Positions 20,602 through 28,370 of a DNA stretch of 34,460 nucleotides are shown here, piece by piece. The notes under the pieces are model-generated. The model was not told where the DNA came from, searched no databases, and saw only the letters and a list, made by a program, of their open reading frames with translations. The stretch is taken from contig JAUWTD010000008.1 of assembly GCA_030609775.1 (NCBI GenBank), positions 1 through 34,460 of the forward strand, in the 5' to 3' direction. This stretch comes from Candidatus Altarchaeota archaeon. Its GTDB lineage: Archaea > Altiarchaeota > Altiarchaeia > IMC4 > QMZM01. Within the stretch, counting starts at the first letter, position 1, and each line of letters starts with the position of its first letter. Made by a program: the position numbers and the translations under genes.

Positions 20602-21132
20602 TTGAAAACTGAGAGAATAAAAAAGGAAACAATGTTTGATATCGAAAAAACCTTCTCAAGGAAAAGAGAACAGAGACGCGTAGCAGAATTCCTCCTGAAG
20701 AATGCCCTAAGGGTGTCGGAGGATGGAGGACTTTTCTTGAGGAAAATAGAGATACCCTACACCTCGGTTGCAAAGGTCCTAAATGTAGACCGGAGAGTAG
20801 TTAAAGCAACAATAAACTCTATTCTCAACGAACCCCGGCTAAAAAAAATCTATACGAAACTGGATTCCGCATTACTATTAAGAGATGTCGCCCCGGAGAT
20901 AGGCTATGGGGCAATAGAGATCATCCCAACTGACGCAGCCTCAAAAGGCATTATCGCAGGGGTTACAAAAATAATCGACGACGCCGAGATAAGCATTAGA
21001 CAAATAATTTCCGAGGACCCGATGTTCGAAAACGCCGAAACCACCATAATCACCGAAAAACCCATTCCAAGAGAAAAAATAGACGAAATACTGCAAATCT
21101 CTGGAGTAAAAAAAGTTACTGTATTAAGCTGA
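20602..21132 (+). CDS. HTH plus ACT-like regulator of amino acid metabolism (COG2150-like)
   Basis: N-terminal HTH (YTSVAKVLNVDRRVVKATINSI) and C-terminal ACT-like segment; the likely real start is ATG 20632 after an aagga SD-like sequence. Confidence 0.65.
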   Translation: MKTERIKKETMFDIEKTFSRKREQRRVAEFLLKNALRVSEDGGLFLRKIEIPYTSVAKVLNVDRRVVKATINSILNEPRLKKIYTKLDSALLLRDVAPEIGYGAIEIIPTDAASKGIIAGVTKIIDDAEISIRQIISEDPMFENAETTIITEKPIPREKIDEILQISGVKKVTVLS

Positions 21133-21388
21133 TCTACTTTCCCCCCCTTACCTGTTATGCGCTTTATTGTTACCTGAGGGGTGTGGGCGGTAGAAACTAT
21201 TATTGTTGCGTGTCTTCTTCTTTTTTGTTTTTATCTTATTTGTGTTATTGTTTTGAGTGGTTGTATGGATAATGTAGTGCCTAACTAATCCTTGCTGTAA
21301 CAATAACAAACCGACGAATTCTTCTGCCACTATATTTTGGTTTAAATCCTTGCTGATACAAATGCCCATATCTATACATTTATGTATA

Positions 21389-21396
21389 TTTATATA
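21389..21396 (+). promoter_or_regulatory. TATA-box-like element of trpE
   Basis: tttatata about 25 nt upstream of the trpE ATG, consistent with a near-leaderless archaeal transcript. Confidence 0.45.
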
Positions 21397-21416
21397 CAAA
21401 ATACCTCATATATGTT

Positions 21417-22835
21417 ATGCAAGTTTTCCCAATCCACATAGAAATCACCGAAAGAAACCCCGAGAAGACATATGAAGCAATCCGCGGAGAAAATACTTAT
21501 CTACTCGAATCCTCCGAAGGCGGAGAAAAAACCGCCCGATACAGTTTCATTGGATTCAATCCAGCTGCTAAATTAACAATCAACGCAAAAAACATTAACT
21601 TAAATATTTTTGATCCGGCTCTGGAACATATAAAAGCTACAGGAAACAACCCCCTGGAGGTGATGAGAAACCTCTTAAACGAGTTTAACCTGACAAAGGA
21701 TCCGATCTCCCGGTTCTTCGGCGGATTCGTCGGCTATTACACATATGACTTAATCCGATACTTTATCGACTTGGAAGAGAACACAAAAAACGACCTCAAA
21801 GAACCCGAATGCGAGTTCATATTAACCAAAAACAACATAATCTTTGACCACTTAGAGAATAAAACCTATCTTCTGTCACACCAATTCCTTAAGGGAAACG
21901 ACGTTAAAGACGTTAAAGATGTCGACGAGGAAACGATAAAGAGGGATCTACGGGAGATTGCCGACAAAATATCCCAGTTCCCTGATCTAAATGAGGTAAA
22001 CATCCTGAATCCAAGTGATTATTCTTCGAACATATCCAAGAAAGAATTCGAGGATAATGTAAGAGCCGCCAAAGACTACATCTATGCAGGAGACATACTT
22101 CAGGTGGTATTATCCCAGCGCCTTGAGACAGAATACGCCGGAGACAAATTTTCGATATACCGCAACCTGAAAAAGATTAATCCATCCCCGTATATGTATT
22201 ACCTTGACTTAGGTGACCGGAAGATAATCGGGTCGTCCCCTGAGATGCTGGTGCGGGTAGAACATAGGCGGGTTGAAACCTATCCGATAGCCGGCACACG
22301 GCCGAGGGGAAAAACACCCACGGAGGATAAACTGCTCGCAGATGAGATGCTAAACGATGAAAAAGAACGGGCGGAACACTTGATGCTTGTTGACCTCGGG
22401 AGAAACGATGTTGGGCGGGTTGCAGAATTCGGAACAGTTAAGGTGACTAAATTCATGGAAGTTGAGAAATATTCTCACGTACAACACATGGTCTCCGAGG
22501 TGGTCGGCGAACTAAAGAAAGACCGAGACGAATTCGATGCCCTAGAATCAATATTTCCTGCAGGAACCGTTTCCGGAGCACCCAAGGTCCGGGCAATGGA
22601 GATCATAGAAGAACTGGAGACTACGCGGAGAGGAATATATTCCGGATGCGTAGGATATTTTTCATTCGATAAAAACATGGATCATGCAATAACTATCCGG
22701 ACAATAGTTTTTGAGAAAGATAAAGCCTACGTCCAGGTGGGTGCAGGCATCGTGGCAGATTCGATTCCAGAGAACGAATATTATGAAACAATGAACAAAG
22801 GAAAAGGCATGCTAAGAGCATTGGGTATAAAATGA
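21417..22835 (+). CDS. trpE: Anthranilate synthase component I
   Basis: YLLESSEGGEKTARYSFIGFNP...GDILQVVLSQRLE...YPIAGTRPRGKT...DLGRNDVGRV...FPAGTVSGAPKVRAMEII. Confidence 0.95.
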   Translation: MQVFPIHIEITERNPEKTYEAIRGENTYLLESSEGGEKTARYSFIGFNPAAKLTINAKNINLNIFDPALEHIKATGNNPLEVMRNLLNEFNLTKDPISRFFGGFVGYYTYDLIRYFIDLEENTKNDLKEPECEFILTKNNIIFDHLENKTYLLSHQFLKGNDVKDVKDVDEETIKRDLREIADKISQFPDLNEVNILNPSDYSSNISKKEFEDNVRAAKDYIYAGDILQVVLSQRLETEYAGDKFSIYRNLKKINPSPYMYYLDLGDRKIIGSSPEMLVRVEHRRVETYPIAGTRPRGKTPTEDKLLADEMLNDEKERAEHLMLVDLGRNDVGRVAEFGTVKVTKFMEVEKYSHVQHMVSEVVGELKKDRDEFDALESIFPAGTVSGAPKVRAMEIIEELETTRRGIYSGCVGYFSFDKNMDHAITIRTIVFEKDKAYVQVGAGIVADSIPENEYYETMNKGKGMLRALGIK

Positions 22836-23218
22836 AAATCCGTGAAACATTATATACAGAAAACGCACCGAAGCCAAAGGGTCCGTATTCGCAGGCAGTC
22901 ATCTACGGTGACCTGGTTTTTGTTTCCGGCCAGGGACCAATAGACTCTAAGACAAATGAAATAATGAGAGGCGAAATCGAGGAGGAAGCCGAACAGACCC
23001 TTGATAACCTAAAGACGATACTGCTTGAGGCCGGATCCTCCCTTGAAAATACGCTAAAGGTGACAGTGTATTTAAGCGATATGAATCATTTCCAGAGATT
23101 TAATAAAATATATGAAAAATATTTCAACAAAAACCCCCCGGCACGTGTATGCATACAAGCTGGGCGACTCCCAAGCGATATAAAGGTTGAAATCGACGCG
23201 ATTGGATATGTTGAATAG
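22832..23218 (+). CDS. ridA: RidA/YjgF-family enamine/imine deaminase
   Basis: APKPKGPYSQAVIYGDLVFVSGQGPID...KVTVYLSDMNHFQRFNKIYEKYF...PARVCIQAGRLP; ATGA overlap with trpE. Confidence 0.92.
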   Translation: MKIRETLYTENAPKPKGPYSQAVIYGDLVFVSGQGPIDSKTNEIMRGEIEEEAEQTLDNLKTILLEAGSSLENTLKVTVYLSDMNHFQRFNKIYEKYFNKNPPARVCIQAGRLPSDIKVEIDAIGYVE

Positions 23219-23243: not shown

Positions 23244-23286
23244 ATAACAAATTTGTTATTTATCTGGTTTATAACAAATTTGTTAT
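23244..23286. promoter_or_regulatory. Two identical 16-bp perfect palindromes (ataacaaatttgttat), probable operator
   Basis: Copies at 23244-23259 and 23271-23286, 27 bp apart; a related imperfect inverted repeat aataac-aataat-gttatt lies at 23298-23315 next to the ATG. Confidence 0.7.
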
Positions 23287-23315
23287 TTTTATTAAATAAT
23301 AACAATAATGTTATT

Positions 23316-24167
23316 ATGCCAAGTTTATTCACCCAATATCAGCGATTGTGGCTACAATTCAAGAATAAGACAATAACTGCAGATGATGCTGCAAAAGCAT
23401 TAACCCTAGAAAAAAACAAAACAAGGGTAACCTTATCACGAATGAAAAAAGACCATATGCTGGTAACGCATAAGCGGGGAGAATATCAGATAGTAGCACC
23501 AACGAAATGGATTAAGATTAAAGAACTTGGTTTAAGGAACCTACCAATACCTGATCAATTAATAGAGGATATTGCATTACACTCAAGGAATATAAGGGCC
23601 ATAATACTGCATGGTTCAATGATCTCGGGGGATACGACCTACCTTAGTGATATAGATATTTTGATAATATCTGATAAAAATTTAGAGGAATTGGCAGATA
23701 AATACAAGTTTCCGCTGAGTATAGAGATACAGCCTGCTGAAGGGTACGACAAAATCTACGTACAACACGCCATAAAAAAAGGGGCCGTTTTATACGATGA
23801 CGGCGTTTGTATAACAATTATGGATTCCAAAAAAACCAAAGAAGATTATATCAAAAAACTTGAAGAAATTCAGTTAATCCTCTTCAAACTTGAAGACGAA
23901 AAACTATTTGAATCCCTAACCCTTATGGACCTAAGTCACATACTCTACTCGAATTTGAGGGGGCTTGAAATATTGGAGGAAGAACTTAGTGGAAAAACAA
24001 CAAAAATCAAAACAGATCAAAAGATACTTGAAGAGACAAAACAGCTATATGGTTTGTCAAAGGCAGGGATGAAAGGGATACCCCACGTTACAAGGAATGA
24101 GTTGAAGAAACTCAGAAATACTATAATAAAGAAATGGGTGCAGCTAAGAACCGAGGCAGATAAATGA
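23316..24167 (+). CDS. AbiEi-like winged-HTH fused to a Pol-beta-type nucleotidyltransferase domain
   Basis: N-terminal TADDAAKALTLEKNKTRVTLSRMKKDHMLVTHKRGEYQIV (wHTH) and HGSMISGDTTYLSDIDILIISD (GS-x11-DxD NTase motif). Start set at ATG 23316, because the track start at 23253 is a TTG inside the palindrome region. Confidence 0.7.
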   Translation: MPSLFTQYQRLWLQFKNKTITADDAAKALTLEKNKTRVTLSRMKKDHMLVTHKRGEYQIVAPTKWIKIKELGLRNLPIPDQLIEDIALHSRNIRAIILHGSMISGDTTYLSDIDILIISDKNLEELADKYKFPLSIEIQPAEGYDKIYVQHAIKKGAVLYDDGVCITIMDSKKTKEDYIKKLEEIQLILFKLEDEKLFESLTLMDLSHILYSNLRGLEILEEELSGKTTKIKTDQKILEETKQLYGLSKAGMKGIPHVTRNELKKLRNTIIKKWVQLRTEADK

Positions 24168-24457
24168 GTCAAAAAAGAGGCAGAAAAAAGAAGATAAAGG
24201 ATGCTATCTCGCTAAAGGCCCAAGGAGATGCACATGAAAAATTGGCTGAAGACCCTGATGTGGATGTAGGGGAACATACTAAGAAGTATTGGAAAAAAGA
24301 GGCGGTTGAATATCATCACCAACTTGAGAAGATAATAGAAAGAGCACAGTTTCCCCAGATTTATATTGAGGAAATTGAACAAAAAGGAAAAGAAAGAGGT
24401 GAAAAATTATATCAAAAAAAGAAAGAGAAAGTCAAAAATCAAAAACAAAGAAGATGA
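24164..24457 (+). CDS. Small highly charged (K/E-rich) hypothetical protein
   Basis: 97-aa ORF with ATGA overlaps with both neighbouring ORFs. Confidence 0.6.
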   Translation: MSQKRGRKKKIKDAISLKAQGDAHEKLAEDPDVDVGEHTKKYWKKEAVEYHHQLEKIIERAQFPQIYIEEIEQKGKERGEKLYQKKKEKVKNQKQRR

Positions 24458-25998
24458 AAAAAACAAAGTTAGCTGAAATAAGGGCACTTCTAAAAGACAA
24501 AAGATTTGAAGATGCACTGAAAATTGCCAGAAAAGAGTCAAAAGGAACAGAAAACCAAAAGGCAAAAGCGTTCATCAATATGGGTGTTGAAGAAGGTGAA
24601 AAAGATAAATTGGAAAATTATCGATTGGCTTCCTTCTACTTTAGATTAGCGGAGAAGATTGCAAAAGATAATAAAATAAAGAAAAATGCAAAAATAAATC
24701 AAGCAATTGATCACACTAATATAGGCGATTTATTAGATGGTTTGGATAAGCTGGAAGAGGCGGTGGTGGCGTATCGTGAGGCGATAAAGATAGATCCTAC
24801 GTATGCACCTGCTCACTACAATTTGGGGGTTGCATTAGTTGGTTTGGGTAAGTTGGGTGAGTCTGTGGTGGCGTATCGTGAGGCGATAGAGCTGGATCCT
24901 ACTCTTGCAGTTGCTTACTACAATTTAGGAAATTCATTAGCTGATTTGGATAAGCTGGAAGAGGCGGTGGTGGCGTATCGTGAGGCGATAAAGATAGATC
25001 CTACGTATGCACCTGCTCACTACAATTTGGGGAGTGTATTAGTTGGTTTGGGTAAGTTGGGTGAGTCTGTGGTGGCGTATCGTGAGGCGATAGAGCTGGA
25101 TCCTACGTATGCACCTGCTCACTACAATTTGGGGGTTGCATTAGTTGGTTTGGGTAAGTTGGGTGAGTCTGTGGTGGCGTATCGTGAGGCGATAAAGATA
25201 GATCCTACTCTTGCAGTTGCTCACAATAATTTAGGGGTTGTGTTGTTTGATTTGGGTAAGTTGGGTGAGTCTGTGGTGGTGTATCGTGAGGCGATAAAGA
25301 TAGATCCTACGCATGCAGTTGCTCACTTTAACTTAGGGCGTACATTAGTTAATCTAGGTGAGATCGGAGAGGCTGAGTCGGAATATAATAAAGCCATAGG
25401 ACTCTTAATGGATTCTCCCAAGAAATGTGCTAGTGTGCATGTGAAGCTTGGAGAGTTATATCTGTCACTTGGAGATAGGCTGCATGATGATAGTTTCTAT
25501 GAGGATGCATTGAATGAGTTTAGGGATGCATTAAAGAAGTCATCTAAATTCAATGAGGACGCTGAACTACACAACAACATGGGTTATGTATTTGTAAAAC
25601 TAAAAAAATTAGATGATGCATTAACTGAATTTAGAGAGAGCGCTAATTTAGATCACAGAGATAGAAAAGTCAAACGTAACCTCCGAAGGATAGAAAAAAT
25701 AGTTGATGAAAAACAAACTAAATCAAAGATGCAAGAGGGTGCATACCTCTTGATATTTGTTGTGCTTTGTTTGTCAATTGCATTATTGACCTTAAATTGG
25801 AATAGTAGTAACTTTATAAATTATGCAGGGTTTGTCATAGCCCTGTTGGTATTACTTTTAGTAATAGCTAATTTACCCGATATGGGGAGAGTTAAGCTTG
25901 GTAATTTCGAATTTGAAAAGGAGACTGCAGATGTAACTATGAGATCCCCTGTAATAAGTAAATTTGAGAGTTCAATATATGGACGGAGGAGAGATTAG
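24454..25998 (+). CDS. TPR-repeat protein with two C-terminal TM helices
   Basis: Multiple 34-aa TPRs (LGKLGESVVAYREAIELDPTYAPAHYNLGVALVG), then AYLLIFVVLCLSIALLTL and YAGFVIALLVLLLVIANL hydrophobic segments. Confidence 0.85.
   Translation: MKKTKLAEIRALLKDKRFEDALKIARKESKGTENQKAKAFINMGVEEGEKDKLENYRLASFYFRLAEKIAKDNKIKKNAKINQAIDHTNIGDLLDGLDKLEEAVVAYREAIKIDPTYAPAHYNLGVALVGLGKLGESVVAYREAIELDPTLAVAYYNLGNSLADLDKLEEAVVAYREAIKIDPTYAPAHYNLGSVLVGLGKLGESVVAYREAIELDPTYAPAHYNLGVALVGLGKLGESVVAYREAIKIDPTLAVAHNNLGVVLFDLGKLGESVVVYREAIKIDPTHAVAHFNLGRTLVNLGEIGEAESEYNKAIGLLMDSPKKCASVHVKLGELYLSLGDRLHDDSFYEDALNEFRDALKKSSKFNEDAELHNNMGYVFVKLKKLDDALTEFRESANLDHRDRKVKRNLRRIEKIVDEKQTKSKMQEGAYLLIFVVLCLSIALLTLNWNSSNFINYAGFVIALLVLLLVIANLPDMGRVKLGNFEFEKETADVTMRSPVISKFESSIYGRRRD
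24741..25344. repeat. Tandem 102-bp TPR-encoding DNA repeats with high nucleotide identity
   Basis: An 88-bp run at 24741-24828 is repeated exactly at 24945-25032 (204-bp offset = 2 units); about six similar units in total. Confidence 0.9.
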
Positions 25999-27836: not shown

Positions 27837-28370
27837 ATGATTGATTCTCAACCAATGAAGGTTAAAATAATTCGCAGCAGCAGACGGAAGAAGACAATAA
27901 GCGCCAAGGAAGTCGGGGAGATGATCTATTTGTATCTTCCAACGGGTTTGTCGCGTGAACAAGAATCCGGATACGTTCAGTGGGCAAAGAAAAAGACTGA
28001 AGTCCGCCAGAGGAAAGATATGCTCAAAGCCCAGAACGCCGACCAGGAATTAAGTAAACTGGCGGATAAATTCAATAAAAAATATTTTAAGGGAGAATTA
28101 ACCTGGGAGAAGATATGCTACTCTACTCAGCAGAATTCTCGCATGTTTGGAGTCTGCAATATTTCCCAAAAAAAGATCCGGATCTCGGATCGATTGATAA
28201 CGATGCCGAAATTTGTTCACGATTATGTTGTTATACACGAGCTTGCGCACTTAAAGATGCTAAAACACAACAAAGAGTTCTGGGAACTTGTGAACCAGTA
28301 CCCTAAAGCAGAACGGGCAAGAGGATACCTGATGGCAGTTGGAATGGGTAACGGATACGACTTGGATTAA
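27837..28370 (+). CDS. YgjP/DUF45-like M48-type metallopeptidase
   Basis: VIHELAHLKMLKHNKEFWELV zinc-binding HExxH motif and KIIRSSRRKKTISAKEV...VYLPTGLS-type N-terminus. Confidence 0.85.
   Translation: MIDSQPMKVKIIRSSRRKKTISAKEVGEMIYLYLPTGLSREQESGYVQWAKKKTEVRQRKDMLKAQNADQELSKLADKFNKKYFKGELTWEKICYSTQQNSRMFGVCNISQKKIRISDRLITMPKFVHDYVVIHELAHLKMLKHNKEFWELVNQYPKAERARGYLMAVGMGNGYDLD

Follow-up and report, generated by a model that had tools for sequence, protein, structure and literature searches.

A candidate self-repressed nucleotidyltransferase gene pair with toxin-antitoxin-like features in the trp operon of an Altiarchaeota archaeon

The trp operon of the Candidatus Altarchaeota archaeon studied here carries three open reading frames between trpE-ridA and trpG, and this raises the question of whether these genes form one functional module and how such a module would relate to the biosynthetic operon around it. 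The window, meaning the whole stretch of DNA that was analysed, comprises 34,460 nucleotides of contig JAUWTD010000008.1. An earlier note made from the letters of this DNA had described the three genes as a self-regulated, AbiE-like unit of a nucleotidyltransferase (NTase), a small charged protein and a membrane-tethered TPR protein, joined by ATGA overlaps and separated by 9 nt from trpG. The window sequence bears out this layout (Table 1). With moderate confidence, we read ORF1 and ORF2 as a self-repressed two-gene, MNT-type, toxin-antitoxin (TA)-like passenger cassette whose partner is not of the HEPN kind. The direct support for this comes from the gene pair, its conserved operators and catalytic residues, its recurrence elsewhere and its patchy distribution.

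Table 1. Features of the trp region discussed in the text. Positions are those of the window; G008 and G004 are the two other genomes with ORF1-ORF2 at trp.
Feature	Position	Strand	Description
TrpY-family regulator gene	20602..21132		adjoins trpE
Near-palindrome	21383..21398		TGTATATTTATATACA, immediately 5' of trpE
ridA (Ribonuc_L-PSP)	22832..23218	+	passenger separating trpE from ORF1; not seen there in relatives
Operator 1 (predicted)	23244..23259	.	perfect 16-bp palindrome ATAACAAATTTGTTAT; conserved in G008 and G004
Operator 2 (predicted)	23271..23286	.	perfect 16-bp palindrome, second copy of ATAACAAATTTGTTAT, 27 bp 3' of operator 1; position conserved
TATA-box-like A/T-rich stretch (putative)	23287..23298	+	about 25 nt 5' of the start codon; read directly from the sequence
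Operator 3 (predicted)	23299..23314	.	imperfect palindrome ATAACAATAATGTTAT, abuts the start codon; identical in G008, degenerate in G004
ORF1	23316..24167	+	winged helix-turn-helix (wHTH) ~1-66; Pol-beta/MNT-type nucleotidyltransferase ~83-165; helical C-terminal region ~175-283
ORF2	24164..24457	+	97-aa basic three-helix small partner; 4-nt (ATGA) overlap with ORF1
ORF3	24454..25998	+	TPR array and two C-terminal hydrophobic (TM-like) helices; judged outside the cassette, at the ORF2/trpG junction
Tandem repeats in ORF3	24732..25327		102-nt TPR repeats, about six, 84% alike
YgjP-like metallopeptidase gene	27837..28370		between trpD and trpC

The two proteins and the predicted promoter

Homologues of ORF1 align from the ATG at 23316 and an upstream TTG at 23253 falls inside the operators, so this ATG is most likely the true start, giving a protein of 283 aa. 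Its NTase core, proposed in the earlier note, was recovered above the Pfam cut-offs (Polbeta, 3.7e-8; NTP_transf_2, 7.2e-7), and G100, S101, D112, D114 and E137 were found to be invariant in 7 sequences from two phyla, the catalytic acidic residues that the note had marked for checking thus being kept. The match to NCBIfam MntA (1.1e-5) lies far below the curated cut-off, and the similarity to PDC-M05A is likewise weak and sub-threshold. The N-terminus had been taken for an AbiEi-type wHTH. In ORF1 itself the resemblance is weak (PADLOC AbiEi, 1e-3, residues 17-63); L101, a homologue with the same domain layout, passes the AbiEi_4 cut-off (1.9e-6) and is linked to ORF1 by hhalign over wHTH and NTase together (1.1e-12). 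The AbiE label for the enzyme has to be dropped: no AbiEii/DUF1814 match was obtained for ORF1-3 in Pfam, NCBIfam or PADLOC, and the NTase, which is fused to the wHTH, is Pol-beta/MNT-like. As judged from a dN/dS of about 0.1, ORF1 is under purifying selection. Its structure model was poor (pLDDT 61.6), and a fold search with it returned mostly winged-helix regulators, none at E<=0.001, and was uninformative.

ORF2 is rich in lysine and glutamate, as had been noted, and its AlphaFold2 model is confident (pLDDT 89). Its residues His24 and Tyr67 are conserved. A fold search with this model gave no PDB match at E<=0.001, and small-partner profiles run against PDB sequences found nothing credible; across profile libraries, fold search and PDB sequence search ORF2 resembles no known toxin. 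We also considered ORF2 as a HEPN protein, which is without support, there being no HEPN match for it or its homologues in Pfam and no conserved Rx4-6H motif in the alignment of its family.

The three palindromes 5' of ORF1 are spaced 27-28 bp apart, and exact copies of the palindrome appeared in none of 100 shuffled windows. Across the three genera that carry the pair at trp, the triplets lie at offsets of 28/55/83, 27/55/83 and 28/56/83 from the ATG. In a scan of five genomes that tolerated one mismatch, the three carriers (the window genome G000, G008 and G004) had such sites only at the ORF1 promoter, with none at trpE or elsewhere in these genomes; the one other site was a diverged one in G001. 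It is this conservation of operators in sequence and position that speaks most strongly and directly for self-regulation by ORF1, which the earlier note had suggested and which we infer here. The start codon directly follows operator 3 and is not preceded by a Shine-Dalgarno motif, and this, together with the A/T-rich stretch, suggests a promoter that would fit a leaderless transcript of ORF1.

Occurrence at the trp locus and outside it

ORF1-ORF2 were found between trpE and trpG in three of the eight trp loci of one Altiarchaeota family, each in a different genus, and were absent from all six loci with trpE-trpG that lie outside it. In the closest trp relatives, G002 and the same-genus G001, the pair is lacking and trpE directly adjoins trpG, so that the uninterrupted sister loci sought in the earlier note do exist and the pair is not part of a conserved core trp locus. 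When the trp genes were concatenated, trees with the three carriers in a single clade were rejected (AU p 0.019 and 0.012); with trpG on its own such a clade was not rejected (p 0.12). The divergence of ORF1 tracks that of TrpG. On these comparisons the cassette would either be old at the trp site, with losses, or have travelled together with parts of the operon.

The window operon has taken up several passengers, namely ridA, ORF1-2, ORF3 and the YgjP-like metallopeptidase gene; trpD and trpC, which flank the last of these, are adjacent in G001 and G002. Two further genomes, G005 and G011, have a different short ORF, about 54 aa long, at the trpE-trpG junction (L051 6366-6531 and L052 7172-7337), so that insertions have occurred there repeatedly. 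The GC content of ORF1 and ORF2 (0.36 and 0.35) is below that of the trp genes (0.40-0.47). The TrpY-family gene beside trpE (NF053754, 1.7e-47, below cut-off) suggests that the operon is under a control of its own as well; a near-palindrome was noticed immediately 5' of trpE (Table 1).

In ORF3, the TPR array (Pfam, 7e-71) and the two hydrophobic helices near the C-terminus, the latter read directly, agree with the earlier description, and the tandem repeats suggest a recent expansion. An arrangement in which ORF1, ORF2 and this protein act jointly as a membrane-tethered defence could appeal to the adjacency and ATGA coupling of the three genes in the window and to known systems of an NTase with a membrane protein, such as Hailong, whose HalB gives a weak NTase-motif match (0.008). 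We regard it as highly improbable. ORF3 was found only in the window genome, where it sits exactly at the ORF2/trpG junction; in the other two trp copies it is missing and ORF2 runs straight into trpG, with a 47-nt overlap in G008 and an ATGA overlap in G004. The C-terminal part of ORF3 has no homologue in 30 relatives, and no TPR gene adjoins the homologous cassettes of a second archaeal phylum among the ORFs listed there. ORF3 was therefore rejected as a component, both as the membrane-tethered partner and as the third member of the unit, since ORF1 and ORF2 recur together and ORF3 does not recur with them.

This recurrence outside trp was seen when 394 archaeal genomes were searched with profiles. 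Credible ORF2 matches came from 3 Altiarchaeota and 4 members of the second phylum, all of them beside ORF1; a match in G307 (9e-5, within a 434-aa frame) was taken as chance. In the second phylum, represented by 28 species in the set, relatives of ORF1 are followed by relatives of ORF2 in G123, G175, G193 and G142, and a fifth pair is present in G398. The cross-phylum matches are near full length (hhalign, ORF1 2.4e-14 over 261 columns, ORF2 4.6e-14 over 89 columns). Some of these cassettes adjoin MNT/HEPN, MazE/PIN, or HATPase and PAPS-reductase genes, and their promoters have a conserved upstream repeat motif of their own, unlike the operators of the trp copies. An overlapping gene pair that stably co-occurs and is patchily distributed is a general feature of TA modules, and ORF1-ORF2 show it.

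These data bear on another explanation, in which ORF1-ORF2, possibly a former conflict module that was domesticated, were recruited as a regulator of trp and control trpG-trpA in response to tryptophan, nucleotides or stress. The same position and operators in three genera, with ORF1 diverged about as far as TrpG, could speak for such a resident regulatory role and against a TA module; the overlap of ORF2 with trpG in G004 and G008 points the same way, and domesticated MNT-HEPN fusions are known as protein-modifying regulators (PMC3710099). We nevertheless think this quite unlikely, because the closest trp relatives run the operon without the pair, the second-phylum homologues lie outside trp loci, no operators were found at trpE or at other places in the carriers, and a TrpY-family gene is already in place beside trpE.

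Wider searches linked the passenger cassette to further archaeal NTases. Those with a DUF2080/AbrB-like head are homologous to ORF1 in the NTase and C-terminal region (hhalign 5.1e-18, 222 columns), and several are followed by an overlapping small, basic, K/E-rich ORF of 54-87 aa. As a control we took every distinct ORF of 180 aa or more in the collected loci, 411 in all, and defined a partner as an overlapping or abutting ORF of 45-115 aa with at least 36% K/R/E. Such a neighbour was present for 15 of the 411, and all 15 were among the 24 NTase-motif ORFs of 230-360 aa, a count which reflects pairing specificity within the loci and not genome frequency, since the loci had been gathered with NTase queries. 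The shorter partners align with the first two helices of ORF2, an invariant histidine being in register (hhalign 1.7e-5; weak, same genomic position). We tentatively propose, as a suggestion that may well need revision, that ORF1-ORF2 are one branch of an undescribed, widespread archaeal TA/defence class, made up of an NTase whose DNA-binding domain is exchangeable (AbiEi-like wHTH or DUF2080/AbrB-like), a helical C-terminus, and a small basic helical partner that has an invariant histidine and takes the place of HEPN.

Two other arrangements were observed on the way. In a second flavour, an AbiEi_4-like wHTH-NTase is followed by a GNSAAHxAxYGE protein of about 105 aa (L101 107-1344, L119 1420-2611, L116 985-1875); this small second-phylum partner was dismissed as a relative of ORF2, the sequences being unrelated. 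Some Altiarchaeota NTases with a DUF2080-like head have no small partner (L007 452-1851, L014 1435-2914, L156) and are followed by a conserved multi-helix membrane protein of about 205 aa, possibly a Hailong-like pair of NTase and membrane protein.

Proposed function and polarity of the pair

In the scheme that we prefer for the passenger cassette, the winged helix of ORF1 would bind the three palindromes and shut off its own promoter, while its NTase domain would most likely modify ORF2, presumably by nucleotidylylation, or hold it in check, the overlap of the two genes providing for their co-translation. If infection or stress, for example, upset the ORF1:ORF2 balance, the cell would be arrested by the free ORF2. 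Both ORF3 and ridA are passengers in their own right. As the cassette lies directly upstream of trpG, its promoter is expected to affect trpG-trpA, so that its repression or induction would feed into these genes; such a coupling is plausible given how ORF2 runs into trpG in the two other carriers. Several observations weigh against this scheme: ORF2 is unlike known toxins, the cassette was not found on plasmids, phages or viral contigs, the MntA and PDC-M05A scores are weak and the ORF1 model is poor.

We prefer to see in ORF1 the repressor and antitoxin-type enzyme, and in ORF2 its target, because the NTase groups with MNT/MntA and not with AbiEii; in type VII modules MNT/MntA supplies the antitoxin (PMC7641770, PMC3710099). 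The G004 copy of ORF2 (L062, from 1159) has an in-frame TGA at a conserved Trp codon beside an intact ORF1, which would also point to ORF2 as the target; the contig has 3.6x coverage, so that a sequencing error is possible, and the dN/dS value of this ORF2 is unreliable because of the stop. The polarity could instead be reversed, with the ORF1 NTase as a toxin, tRNA-modifying like MenT and carrying a fused repressor, and ORF2 as a small antitoxin. MenT and AbiEii are indeed nucleotidyltransferase toxins (PMC10435456, PMC3985639), the family has an AbiEi-like wHTH, as the AbiEi_4 match of L101 indicates, the catalytic residues of ORF1 are kept, and many antitoxins are small and charged, as is ORF2. 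We consider this reversal unlikely, though deserving of serious attention: the NTase scores with MNT/MntA and not AbiEii/DUF1814, the role of DNA-binding repressor usually belongs to the antitoxin and is here found in ORF1, and a stop in ORF2 next to an intact ORF1, on that low-coverage contig, is the opposite of a tolerable antitoxin loss. If ORF2 is a toxin it is probably one of a new kind; if it is the antitoxin, the NTase would be an uncharacterised archaeal toxin. The trp copy is in addition a natural case of a passenger module inside a biosynthetic transcription unit.

Comparison with known systems

Hailong (HalA/HalB) shares with ORF1 the core motif of its NTase, weakly and far below cut-off, and differs in that ORF1-ORF2 have no conserved membrane effector. 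AbiE and MenAT (type IV) have in common with ORF1 a nucleotidyltransferase and a winged helix, which in ORF1 itself is weakly AbiEi-like, and repression through multiple inverted repeats, known from Rv2827c (PMC7319586), has its counterpart here in predicted operators. ORF1, however, fuses wHTH and NTase, is without AbiEii/DUF1814 and has an extra small partner in ORF2; membership of ORF1-ORF2 in AbiE was rejected on the lack of AbiEii. The archaeal NTases with a DUF2080/AbrB-like head have a homologous NTase and C-terminal region and a small overlapping partner that aligns with ORF2, and differ in their DNA-binding domain, in a partner that is mostly shorter and in lying outside trp.

MNT-HEPN pairs are among the commonest two-gene modules of archaea, and their logic, in which the toxin is disarmed by nucleotidylylation, has been worked out recently. 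In these pairs the MNT gene lies 5' and encodes the antitoxin (PMC3710099), and a candidate system, PDC-M05, combines an NTase with HEPN and is enriched in archaea (PMC12988326). As in type VII HepT/MntA and PDC-M05, a Pol-beta/MNT-type NTase gene here stands 5' of a small helical partner, the NTase shows the MNT signature GS...DxD...acidic residue, and wHTH-MNT/HEPN pairs adjoin ORF1-ORF2 homologues. Insertion into an amino-acid operon also has a precedent, an MNT-HEPN pair being present in the lysine operon of Thermus thermophilus HB8 and not in that of HB27 (PMC2701414). The differences are that ORF2 is not HEPN and that ORF1 is much longer, with a helical C-terminal region and an AbiEi-like N-terminus. 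Our searches of the open-licence literature turned up no account of an NTase whose small helical partner is of the ORF2 kind and not HEPN. MNT-HEPN modules, their insertion into amino-acid operons and PDC-M05 were thus known already, and relative to them the ORF1-ORF2 family keeps the MNT enzyme and swaps its DNA-binding head and its partner, the latter for a small helical protein unnamed in the profile libraries searched.
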